Assembly: GCF_900218015.1 (NCBI RefSeq)
Contig: NZ_UFQQ01000004.1
Location: forward strand, 62,001 to 126,000
Direction of reading: 5' to 3'
Origin: Rhodopseudomonas pentothenatexigens
GTDB lineage: Bacteria; Pseudomonadota; Alphaproteobacteria; Rhizobiales; Xanthobacteraceae
DNA: 64,000 nucleotides
Part shown: piece after piece, positions 35,452 to 37,821 of the stretch
Layout: every line of letters begins with the position of its first letter
How positions within the stretch are numbered: position 1 is the first letter of the stretch
Notes under the pieces: generated by a model
What the model saw: only the letters and a program-made list of their open reading frames with translations
What the model was told of the DNA's origin: nothing
Database searches by the model: none
Position numbers and translations under genes: made by a program

Positions 35452-36297
35452 TCAGTCGCGCAGCAATTCGTTGATGCTGGTCTTCGACCGGGTGCGTTCG
35501 TCGACGCGCTTGACAATCACCGCGCAGGCGGTGGCTGGGCCGGGCGCGCCGTTCTTCATCGGCTTGCCGGGCAGCGTGCCGGGCACCAGCACCGCGTATT
35601 CGGGTACTTCGCCGATGAAGGTCTCGCCGGTCTCGCGGTCGACGATCTTGGTCGAAGCGCCGAGGAACACGCCCATCGCCAGCACTGCGCCCTTGCGCAC
35701 GATCACGCCTTCGGCGACCTCGGAGCGGGCGCCGATGAAGCAGTCGTCCTCGATGATCACCGGGCCGGCCTGCAGCGGCTCGAGCACGCCGCCGATACCG
35801 GCGCCGCCGGAGATGTGGACGCGCTTGCCGATCTGAGCGCAGGAGCCGACGGTGGCCCAGGTGTCGACCATGGTGGATTCGTCCACATAGGCGCCGAGAT
35901 TGACGAAGGACGGCATCAGCACCGCGTTCTTGGCGATGAAGGCGGAGCGGCGCACGATCGCACCCGGCACCGCGCGGAAGCCGGCCTCACGGAAGCGGTT
36001 CTCGCCCCAGCCCTCGAACTTCGACGGCACCTTGTCCCACCAGTTGGCGCCGCCGGGGCCGCCTTCGATCACGCCCATGTCGTTGAGCCGGAACGACAGC
36101 AGCACCGCCTTCTTCAGCCACTGATTGACCGTCCAGGCACCGGATTCGTCGCGCTGGGCCACCCGCACCTTGCCCTGGTCGAGCAGATCGAGCGCATCGT
36201 TGACCGCCTCCCGAACCTCACCCTGGGTCGCAGGCGTAACGGTGTCGCGCGCCTCGAAAGCGGCGTTGATGGTAGATTCCAGGGCAGTGAGCGGCAT
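35452..36297 (-). CDS. dapD: Tetrahydrodipicolinate N-succinyltransferase
   Basis: DapD succinylates tetrahydrodipicolinate, the step before DapC and DapE in lysine/DAP synthesis. The 281-residue trimeric enzyme has an N-terminal helical domain and a left-handed beta-helix with hexapeptide repeats ([40 protein letters not shown]). The start is the ATG at 36297, since upstream in-frame sequence is repeat DNA. dapE and DUF805 follow. Confidence 0.96.
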
Positions 36298-36403
36298 CGA
36301 CGGGTCCTTGGCGAGTGTCGGAAAGGCGTTGACTGTCAACGCGGACGTTGGGGCTTTGTCCGGATTCGCCGGGTCGGAGTCAAGGCGCCGCCGCGTCCCC
36401 CAC

Positions 36404-36505
36404 GTCGTCGCCCGGCTCGTCCGGGCGATCCAGTATTCAAGGGCGATGGATGGAAGATCGCGAGCGCTCTGCGATACTGGTTCGCCCGCCTGCGCGGGCG
36501 ATGAC
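36404..36505. repeat. Gene-less 102-bp double-palindrome unit A
   Basis: The left arm (GTCGTCGCCCGGCTCGTCCG to CCAGTAT) and inverted right arm (ATACTGGTTCGCCCGCCTGC to GATGAC) enclose a spacer of about 35 bases. A 38-base linker separates it from the gene-bearing unit at 36544. A unit of identical length lies at 36992. This is the compact form of the element that carries the GIY-YIG gene. Confidence 0.88.
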
Positions 36506-36543
36506 GATTGGGGATATGGCGACGCCGGCTCCCATTCCCCCAC

Positions 36544-36953
36544 GTCGTCGCCCGGCTCGTCCGGGCGATCTAGTATCCTAGAGCGTTGGACTATTGGGGA
36601 GGCCGCCGATGCCGCGGCAGTTCTACGTCTATATCCTGGCCAGTCGGATCGGCGGGACGATCTACGTCGGCGTCACCAATGATCTCGTCCGTCGCATATT
36701 CGAGCACAAATCCAAAGAGGTCGAGGGTTTCACGCTGCGCTACGGCGTCGATCGGCTGGTGTATTTCGAAGTGTACGACGATGTCGAGAATGCGATCCGG
36801 CGCGAGAAGCGGCTGAAGAAGTGGCCGCGCGAATGGAAGATCAGGCTGATCGAGGAGCACAATCCGGATTGGAATGATCTGTACCCGGAGATCGCCGGTC
36901 CGCCCTAAGCGGCGCTCTGGAATACTGGATCGCCCGCCTTCGCGGGCGATGAC
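36544..36953 (+). mobile_element. GIY-YIG nuclease gene inside one repeat unit (candidate autonomous element)
   Basis: This 410-bp unit has inverted arms of 42 bases (36544-36585) and 41 bases (36913-36953). Outside the hairpin loops, 31 of 35 positions match, and all four differences are transitions. Each arm folds by itself (CGCCCGG/CCGGGCG and CGCCCGC/GCGGGCG). The arms directly bracket a 99-codon GIY-YIG gene (23 bases before the ATG, 4 bases after the stop). Units without the gene flank it on both sides. The layout is that of a nuclease-coding element with non-autonomous derivatives; mobility is inferred and not shown. Confidence 0.7.
36609..36908 (+). CDS. GIY-YIG family endonuclease, small single-domain
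   Basis: This 99-residue protein is essentially one GIY-YIG domain. The motif appears as FYVYILAS and, after a short loop, [20 protein letters not shown], giving the two active-site tyrosines and the conserved Arg. Further conserved pieces are [20 protein letters not shown], the catalytic Glu region [11 protein letters not shown] and [13 protein letters not shown]. The ATG at 36609 has GGGAGG 7 bases upstream. No DNA-binding extension is present. Small proteins of this type are multi-copy in related genomes (from memory). Its placement between repeat arms suggests the arms are its substrate. Confidence 0.92.
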
Positions 36954-36991
36954 GGTTGGGGATGTAGTGGCGCCGGCTTTCGTTCTCCCAC

Positions 36992-37093
36992 GTCGTCGCC
37001 CGGCTTGTCCGGGCGATCCAGTATGCCAGAGCATAGGAGGGGAGGTCGCGGCCTCTCTGGAATGCTGGTTCGCCCGCCTGCGCGGGCGATGAC
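36992..37093. repeat. Gene-less 102-bp double-palindrome unit C
   Basis: This unit has the same length and arm sequences as unit A (GTCGTCGCCCGGCTTGTCCG and TGCTGGTTCGCCCGCCTGCG to GATGAC). It follows the gene-bearing unit after a 38-base linker that matches the A-B linker at 29 of 38 positions. The spacer between arms differs from unit A, with transversions, so this is not a very recent duplicate. Confidence 0.88.
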
Positions 37094-37119
37094 GTCGTTA
37101 CTGGGGAGGGCGCGGTGCC

Positions 37120-37821
37120 TTACTTCGCGGGGCTCAGCGTCTTCAAAAACCCCGTCAGATCATCCGTCACATGGTCGACGTGGGCGGCGTCGCGGCCTTC
37201 GAGCTCCCAGTCTTCGCGAACCACCTCCTGGCTGCCGTCGGGCACCACCAAAACGGTGGTCATGCCGAGTTGGTGCGGCACGGTGAGGTTGCGGGCGAGG
37301 TCTTCGAACATCGCGGCGCGCGCCGGGTCGACGCCGTGGCGGTCGAGGAAGCGGCGGTAGGTCTGCGGCGCCGGCTTCGGTTCGAGCTCGGCCGCGACGA
37401 TGTCGAACACCGCCTCGAAATGATGGCCGATGCCGAGCCGCTCCAGCACCTTGCCGGCATGCGCGACCGAGCCGTTGGTCAGGATCAGCTTGCGTCCCGG
37501 AAGCCGCTGGATCGCGTCGCCCATCGCCGGGTTCGGCTCGAGCGGCGAATGGTCGATGGCGTGGACGTAAGCGAGATAATCGTCGGCGTGGACGCTGTGC
37601 TCGGTCATCATCCCTCGCATCGTGGTGCCGTAGCGCTTGTAGTAATCCTTCTGGATGCGGAAGGCTTCCTCCGCCGACACCTTCAGCCAATCGGCGACGA
37701 AGTCGCGGATGCGAACGTCGACCTGCTGCCACAGATTGAGGTGATGCGGATACAGCGTGTTGTCGAGGTCGAACACCCAGGTCTCGACGTGATCGAAGCC
37801 GCGTTTGCCGAGTTGCATCAT
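37120..37821 (-). CDS. HAD-superfamily pyrimidine 5'-nucleotidase
   Basis: This 233-residue HAD hydrolase belongs to the SDT1/PPN1-like pyrimidine nucleotidase group. Motif I is WVFDLDNTLYPHHLNLW, with the nucleophile and acid aspartates. Motif II is LILTNGSVAHAGKVLERLG, followed by the Lys in ELEPKPAPQTYRRF and motif IV around MFEDLARNL. It would dephosphorylate UMP/CMP or modified nucleotides. The start ATGATG overlaps the stop of the upstream DUF1036 gene. In this lineage it neighbours dapD and argB. Confidence 0.9.
   Translation of the reverse strand: MMQLGKRGFDHVETWVFDLDNTLYPHHLNLWQQVDVRIRDFVADWLKVSAEEAFRIQKDYYKRYGTTMRGMMTEHSVHADDYLAYVHAIDHSPLEPNPAMGDAIQRLPGRKLILTNGSVAHAGKVLERLGIGHHFEAVFDIVAAELEPKPAPQTYRRFLDRHGVDPARAAMFEDLARNLTVPHQLGMTTVLVVPDGSQEVVREDWELEGRDAAHVDHVTDDLTGFLKTLSPAK

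Follow-up and report, generated by a model that had tools for sequence, protein, structure and literature searches.

The locus studied here raises the question of whether a small nuclease gene and the palindromic repeats on either side of it form one element, and whether the nuclease is what spreads such repeats. It lies in a window of 64,000 nt (the whole stretch of DNA that was analysed) from Rhodopseudomonas pentothenatexigens, whose assembled genome comprises 5.38 Mb in 69 contigs. According to the available text of PMC3733652 (2013), REPs are split into the GTAG and CGTC superfamilies, and the CGTC REPs, whose hosts include R. palustris, Bradyrhizobium, Neisseria (dRS3, which are CGTC-1 REPs) and R. 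conorii (RPE-4/RPE-6), are apparently without a dedicated transposase; they are defined there by a CGTC tag, AT at the stem base, a stem of 8-9 bp and a CCA-like tail. RAYT is the enzyme proposed as dedicated to the GTAG REPs; the available part of PMC3116915 gives the definition of REPINs, and in it RAYTs are presented as single-copy genes that do not mobilise themselves. As a superfamily, the CGTC-type REPs date in the literature from 2013 and have had no known moving enzyme; the nuclease described here is a concrete candidate for that part. A search of the open-access literature by title, abstract opening and term counts (subscription journals and preprints lay outside its scope) returned, among the matches listed, no paper linking a GIY-YIG nuclease to REPs. 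In the text available of each, PMC5082802 names Br-REP1/2 in Bradyrhizobium and contains no words starting with nuclease or GIY, PMC12306157 makes no mention of transposase, RAYT or nuclease, and PMC1564403, a classification of GIY-YIG nucleases, contains no palindrom- or UPF0213 terms.

Materials and methods

Homologues of the nuclease were found in 16 of 16 genomes of the genus (E ≤ 0.001), 91 of 119 of the family (E ≤ 1e-15) and 100 of 398 of the phylum (E ≤ 1e-12), at 75 loci on the contigs of named genomes and in a plasmid search that gave 31 records (E ≤ 1e-15). Two of the plasmid-labelled records, NZ_CP119140.1 (2.17 Mb) and NZ_AP026896.1 (4.94 Mb), are of whole-chromosome size. The main sample of 175 loci consisted of 45 of the 48 genus matches, 55 family matches (the best of a longer list, two at contig ends being skipped) and the 75 contig loci; L005 and L006 stand outside it. 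A later sample was made up of 26 phylum loci and 10 plasmid hits, the latter picked for variety from 30 listed, and 34 of these 36 loci had enough flank. Loci with short flanks were dropped: 6 of 175 in the tagged-hairpin tests, 5 of 175 in the arm-score test and 2 of 36 in the later sample. Six pairs were identical loci fetched twice (L007/L035, L011/L036, L039/L166, L040/L128, L042/L131 and L047/L177). Loci from other phyla come mostly from metagenome assemblies, and the reliability of their host labels is that of the binning.

Tagged hairpins were detected as NGTC[AG]T followed by a stem of at least 8 bp, settings that had been widened after misses in a stricter version and that were applied unchanged to the later sample. 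Control ORFs were neighbouring ORFs of 110 residues or more. Pairs of loci were counted as different sites under a strict rule that excluded syntenic pairs whose homology is broken by neighbouring repeats. Repeat copies were counted by exact tail patterns in the 16 genus genomes, and the reversed-pattern controls were all 0.

Structure of the window element

The gene lies inside a unit of 412 bp that runs from tag to tag (36543-36954), with both CGTC tags pointing outward and the inner tails mutually inverted (Table 1). Inverted arms of 24 nt (36562-36585 and 36913-36936) are 88% complementary, and the arm score was 64, whereas 1,157 slid pseudo-genes scored 57 at most, with a 99th percentile of 30.4. 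This bears out the sequence-only reading of the window, which had placed a 99-codon GIY-YIG gene between inverted arms; as it also stated, the ATG is 23 bases away from the left arm and the stop 4 bases away from the right one. Its arm coordinates, 36544-36585 and 36913-36953, give way to the ends of the unit stated above, and the two hairpins are not identical but differ in their stems. Folded as DNA, the left REP (36543-36590) reached -13.5 kcal/mol (z -4.41) and the right REP (36909-36957) -12.7 kcal/mol (z -1.88), 11 of 200 shuffles being equally good in the latter case. The window hairpins agree with the published CGTC definition in tag and stem, and depart from it in the left stem base, GT/AT, and the left tail, CTAGTAT; among the repeats of the genus, families C and D depart from it in having longer stem-loops.

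Table 1. Coordinates of the window element and its surroundings
Feature	Position	Strand	Remark
Neighbour gene, presumably dapD	35452..36297	-	One anchor for site comparison
Gene-less copy of the unit	36403..36506	.	REPIN-like doublet; one long hairpin, z -3.87
Left REP	36543..36569	+	Tag CGTC and hairpin, stem TCGCCCGG/CCGGGCGA; outer end of the element
Left tail, CTAGTATCCTAGAGCG	36570..36585	+	Inverted copy of the right tail
GIY-YIG nuclease gene, 99 aa	36609..36908	+	Single domain; from the ORF list, PF01541 match; ATG at 36609, stop ending 36908
Right tail, reading CGCTCTGGAATACTGG on the + strand	36913..36928	-	
Right REP	36929..36954	-	Hairpin ATCGCCCGC/GCGGGCGAT and tag (GACG on +); outer end of the element
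Second gene-less copy	36991..37094	.	85% identity to the first over 111 nt; z -5.74
Neighbour gene, presumably a HAD-type hydrolase	37120..37821	-	Other anchor for site comparison

The gene is flanked by two gene-less units, each with 51 nt between its hairpins; like REPINs, they are inverted REP doublets that form a hairpin. The arms of other copies had been said to enclose about 30-60 bases, and the gaps between facing tag pairs of several families, 36 to 83 nt, are slightly wider. The region 36396-37094 is a tandem of three doublets with a similar spacer between them (127 nt at 85%), which suggests that duplication took in the doublet along with its spacer.

Two other candidates were rejected. 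An Rfam search of 36300-37200 for known structured RNA gave zero matches at the gathering score, CRISPR-DR28 matching the hairpins below it, and a search for carriage by phages gave 0 matches at E ≤ 1e-10 among 50,697 phage records.

The GIY-YIG protein

The GIY-YIG family PF01541 matched residues 5-77 (E 9.4e-17) and was the sole Pfam family above its own cut-off; no RING domain came above the cut-off in the Pfam search of the 99-aa protein, on which the group I intron endonuclease model scored 20.6 against a cut-off of 56.05. Y8, Y19, R29, H33, E54, E66 and N85 were invariant among 19 aligned homologues, and in a 34-row alignment Y19 and R29 were invariant, with Y8, E54 and E66 at 90% or more. 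The protein carries the two Tyr motifs, the Arg and the Glu at the conserved positions of the GIY-YIG superfamily, E54 and E66 being candidates for the catalytic Glu. Values of dN/dS were 0.03-0.15 in 16 pairs (rough in the six with dS > 1; one further pair of unequal length was left out), and by this measure the gene is under purifying selection.

The AlphaFold2 model had a mean pLDDT of 91.9. The single PDB match of this model below E 0.001 in Foldseek was the UPF0213 protein 1zg2 (E 1e-4, TM 0.56-0.58, rmsd 7.0), in agreement with the sequence search (E 1e-5), and the next ten matches, at E 0.026-0.3, comprised another UPF0213 protein and Slx1 or Slx1-Slx4 structures, one of which contains flap DNA. 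We know of no function assigned to UPF0213. Judged from the model, kinship to a branched-DNA nuclease would suit a hairpin substrate.

Arms around the homologues

Outward-tagged hairpins were present on both sides at 93 of 169 loci (genus 30/45, family 36/54, contigs 27/70) and at 0 of the 204 neighbouring control ORFs, and on one side only at 33 of 169 loci against 21 of 204 controls. Inward-facing tags on both sides also occurred (22/169 loci against 2/204 controls), owing to the frequency with which doublets lie next to one another. The stricter detector found the outward layout at 65 of 169 loci and at none of 10,382 slid pseudo-genes. In a test that ignores the tags, the inverted similarity of the flanks lay above the 99% null in 136 of 170 loci, and in 82 it was higher than any null value; of the 34 loci below this threshold, 29 were also without outward tags on both sides. 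Removal of the duplicates left 89 of 163 loci with tags on both sides and 130 of 163 above the arm threshold. The later sample gave 17 of 34 by tags, and 26 of 34 by arm score compared with 1.5% of 204 null draws, its eight loci below the threshold including those of R. tumorigenes and Photobacterium. On R. tumorigenes plasmids, compared as a possible filled/empty pair, the gene-less matches listed cover 35-37% of the query.

These counts agree with the earlier expectation that homologues carry flanking arms, as most of those examined do. Relatives below 50% identity depart from the tagged layout: 0 of 20 such loci had outward tags on both sides, yet 10 of 20 passed the arm threshold. The arm association weakens with protein distance. 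A distant GIY-YIG gene in G008 (L021, 31% identical) has matching arms, GTCATCCTGAGG...CGAAGGATGC, at about 1307-1406 and 1811-1901 with a score of 68, so the association may extend beyond the close nuclease family. On plasmid p1 of Planktothrix agardhii No.66 (L239), a homologue has an MmeI-type restriction gene on one side and DISARM drmA on the other, with imperfect inverted flanks and an arm score of 36.

Ends of the unit and families of arms

Among 2,032 pairs of loci that share the gene at different sites, 138 had tags detected in both members and homology through both hairpins; in the remaining pairs homology stops earlier or tags were undetected. In these 138 pairs, which are mutually non-independent, the end of homology lay no more than 3 nt from the tag in 122 pairs on the upstream side and in 122 on the downstream side (median 0), and it overshot the tag by at most 103 and 28 nt. 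Homology ends at the tags, so the unit runs from tag to tag. One apparent further site, L016, was rejected as being the L002 site.

GTC[AG]T or its complement was present in 143 of 157 arms (distinct genes, tag not required) compared with 21% of random segments; the tag is CGTC or TGTC, with NGTC in some loci. The tail and arm types of the genus are the CCAGTAT of the window, GGCAATCCAT/CGCATCCAT, GAGCCCGGAATCCATA, GAACCCGGAATCTC and GTCCCGGCCATCCA, and arms of the types TGTCATTCTGAGCGAAGCGAAGAATCTA and TGTCATTGCGAG...GAAGCAATCT occur in Bacteroidales and Omnitrophota assemblies, respectively. At L083, L092, L096, L084, L072, L075 and L102, nuclease homologues stand between palindromes such as TGTCATTCTGAGCGAAGCGAAGAATCT and TGTCATTGCGAGGAGC...GACGAAGCAATCT; these loci are in assemblies labelled as Bacteroidales or Bacteroidia, Omnitrophota and Deltaproteobacteria. 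Four such DNA strings, and two peptide strings, were absent from the open-access literature searched. N. gonorrhoeae 2022NG-0076 (L237, about 1366-1392 and 1784-1966) has a GIY-YIG homologue of 54% identity amid dRS3-type repeats, ATTCCCGC...GCGGGAAT, with GTC tags. At L048 (about 2394-2473/2786-2867) and L235 (1391-1474/1815-1899), the gene stands between two complete doublets and not inside one, which is a second layout of the same parts.

Matching of arms and nucleases

Both arms belonged to one family in 16 of the 16 genus loci typable on both sides; family D was not typable on both sides with the pattern used. In the 16 genomes with at least two armed nucleases (40 genes), the median similarity was 0.70 between the two arms of one nuclease against 0.20 with the arms of its paralogues, and none of 300 within-genome shuffles of the arms reached the observed mean. 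Families may be shared within a genome, as in G010, where two paralogues have B arms and two have C arms. Across 66 armed loci, protein identity correlated with arm similarity (Mantel rho 0.55, 0 of 999 permutations), a correlation of which physical linkage alone would give part.

Exact copies numbered 0 to 156 per family and genus genome. Family A had a median of 40 copies with a cognate nuclease and 20 without (p 0.0014), and family D 90 and 33 (p 0.014), with G004 scored as D-positive through L031, whose D repeats face inward. The excess was less clear for families E (p 0.07) and B (p 0.11), and the copy number of family C did not track the nuclease in the 16 genomes (p 0.45); the five families together gave p 0.0001 with phylogeny ignored. 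G008 has no close nuclease, yet holds 23 A, 45 B and 33 D copies: REPs outlast their nucleases.

Filled, repeat-only and empty sites

The site between the two anchor genes of Table 1, called here the dapD-HAD site, was read in 15 genus genomes (for G013 the anchor was not obtained). Gene and arms are present in six (G000, G005, G006, G007, G002 and G014) and the gene is absent from eight, namely G004, which keeps a half-repeat relic, G008 (76 bp, no repeat), G012 (96 bp), G001, G003 and G009-G011; in G015, repeats are followed by unrelated sequence. The gene is thus not fixed among these genomes; fixation, with arms unrelated in position, was one outcome that would have refuted the sequence-only reading. 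In G009, G010 and G011 (L149, L145 and L148), the site holds another palindrome pair, GTAGGATGGGTTA...TAACCCATCCTAC, which looks like a GTAG REP. The window copy occupies one site common to six species and, by shared flanks, to another genus (L111), so it is an old resident; filled and empty sites support a mobile element, and this long residence speaks against a freely jumping one.

A second site, read in 15 of the 16 genus genomes, carries the gene with a B doublet in G011, G010, G000 and G004, a B doublet without the gene in G013, and other doublets, other sequence or none in the rest. In Azospirillum lipoferum 4B, a 509-bp insert of doublet, gene and doublet lies between sufB and sufC, where A. 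ramasamyi and A. oryzae have gaps of 91 and 87 bp without such a repeat. By eye, no target-site duplication was seen at these three sites, the flanks at the sufB-sufC insertion point being too diverged to reveal one. All these comparisons are between species, so insertion and loss are not separable at a single site.

Discussion

Gene and arms almost certainly constitute one discrete, recurrent element. The same unit occurs at different sites with exact ends, and filled and empty sites exist in comparisons between species, as expected of a transposable element. We propose that the unit 36543-36954 is a small mobile element made of two outward-tagged inverted CGTC REPs, a REPIN-like doublet in which a one-domain GIY-YIG gene would take the place of the loop. 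The nuclease would recognise the hairpin arms of its own unit, probably in extruded or single-stranded form, and would cut at or near the GTC-AT junction of tag and stem; host repair or recombination would then copy the gene-bearing unit to new sites, and gene-less doublets would be copied in trans. A GIY-YIG domain acts by hydrolysing DNA and is not known to join ends, which leaves half of the process to host functions. The CGTC REP superfamily would accordingly have its dedicated enzyme in this nuclease, a counterpart of RAYT from an unrelated fold. That the nuclease drives the spread of CGTC-type REPs is the reading we favour and hold to be fairly probable.

The main rival is a free-standing homing endonuclease that parasitises REPINs, homing into gene-less doublets by cutting and recombination while the REPs spread otherwise. 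GIY-YIG is a classic homing fold (PMC1564403, available part), the arms would match because they are the target, and the second site does offer a gene-less B doublet in G013 beside gene-bearing ones in G011, G010, G000 and G004. However, gene-bearing and gene-less doublets share, as judged by eye, the hairpins and only some 10-15 inner bases, with no clean split target; nuclease lineages are matched with arm families; and the gene sometimes stands between two complete doublets (L048, A. lipoferum). We therefore regard homing as unlikely.

An Slx1-like enzyme that serves the host by trimming or resolving REP hairpins, has no part in mobility and stays close to its substrate through linkage or for self-regulation would be consistent with the purifying selection, with Slx1 among the nearest folds and with one site common to six species. 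It fits poorly with many unrelated sites having tag-exact edges, with the patchy spread (91/119 family and 100/398 phylum genomes) and with the many genomes that hold several diverged paralogues, each with its own matching arms, and appears improbable. The gene might instead be cargo, captured by one lineage of doublets that another transposase, RAYT or other, moves. GTAG-type palindromes do occur in the same genomes, for example at the dapD-HAD site of G009-G011, and we take this motif to be RAYT-linked. But a single capture does not readily place one gene family inside differing hairpins in assemblies of several phyla, and among the species examined in PMC3733652 (available text) no gene for a tyrosine transposase had CGTC units at its flanks. 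We regard the cargo reading as very improbable. Coincidence, i.e., small genes often falling between two of the REPs that crowd intergenic space, is scarcely credible: the repeats are numerous (up to 156 exact copies per family in the 16 genus genomes) and 21 of 204 control ORFs do have an outward hairpin on one side, but none of those ORFs, all longer than the nuclease at 110 residues or more, and none of the 10,382 slid positions is flanked on both, and no shuffle in 300 reproduced the within-genome arm matching.

A wider proposal can be made, which we consider about evenly balanced between right and wrong: one-domain GIY-YIG nucleases may form a hitherto unrecognised class of minimal mobile elements throughout bacteria, each lineage acting on its own GTC-AT hairpin and generating the orphan CGTC-type palindromes (the CGTC REPs of alphaproteobacteria, the dRS3 of Neisseria and the TGTCATTCTGAGCGAAGCGAAGAATC-type of Bacteroidales assemblies) by a hydrolytic cut and host repair, with no transposase or recombinase. 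If this were true, many short intergenic palindromes would be miniature offspring of one nuclease family, REPIN-like co-evolution would have a second, independent instance, and an enzyme of about 100 residues would represent a minimal means of DNA mobility. The catalytic domain is not reported with REPs in the open-access papers searched, and the ends of the element are defined almost to the base. A large class of bacterial repeats lacks a known driver, and this nuclease is a good candidate for that role.

Comparison with known systems

Classical insertion sequences share inverted ends with the present element; a target duplication is not definable at the sites compared. I-TevI-type homing endonucleases have the GIY-YIG catalytic domain in a selfish setting in common with it, and differ in that the protein here is 99 aa of catalytic domain only, at many unrelated intergenic sites between hairpin arms, with neither a cognate target gene, intron or intein nor extra DNA-binding modules. 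The UPF0213/Slx1 group provides the best match in sequence and fold (1zg2, then Slx1-Slx4 structures), whereas the protein described here has no RING domain found and sits in repeats.

The CGTC REP superfamily, as presented in the available text of PMC3733652, has the same tag, AT at the stem base, a CCA-type tail, head-to-head doublets and shared hosts in R. palustris and Bradyrhizobium; it was published without a dedicated transposase, whereas here a nuclease gene lies inside the repeat. The REPIN-RAYT system (REPtron) is a parallel in organisation. According to the parts of PMC3116915 and PMC3733652 available, it too has inverted tagged hairpin doublets across intergenic space, REPs of one family on either side of the enzyme gene, a REP of its own for each enzyme lineage, largely vertical descent at the species level and tandem clusters. 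It differs in its tag, which is GTAG there and CGTC/TGTC here, in its RAYTs being single-copy according to PMC3116915, compared with up to 9 homologues in one genome (G098) here, and in the placement of the gene, which here lies inside a doublet or between two doublets. The parallel with RAYTs drawn in the sequence-only reading is accordingly apt in layout and co-evolution and parts company at the enzyme class, an HUH (IS200/IS605-like) tyrosine transposase there and a GIY-YIG nuclease here.
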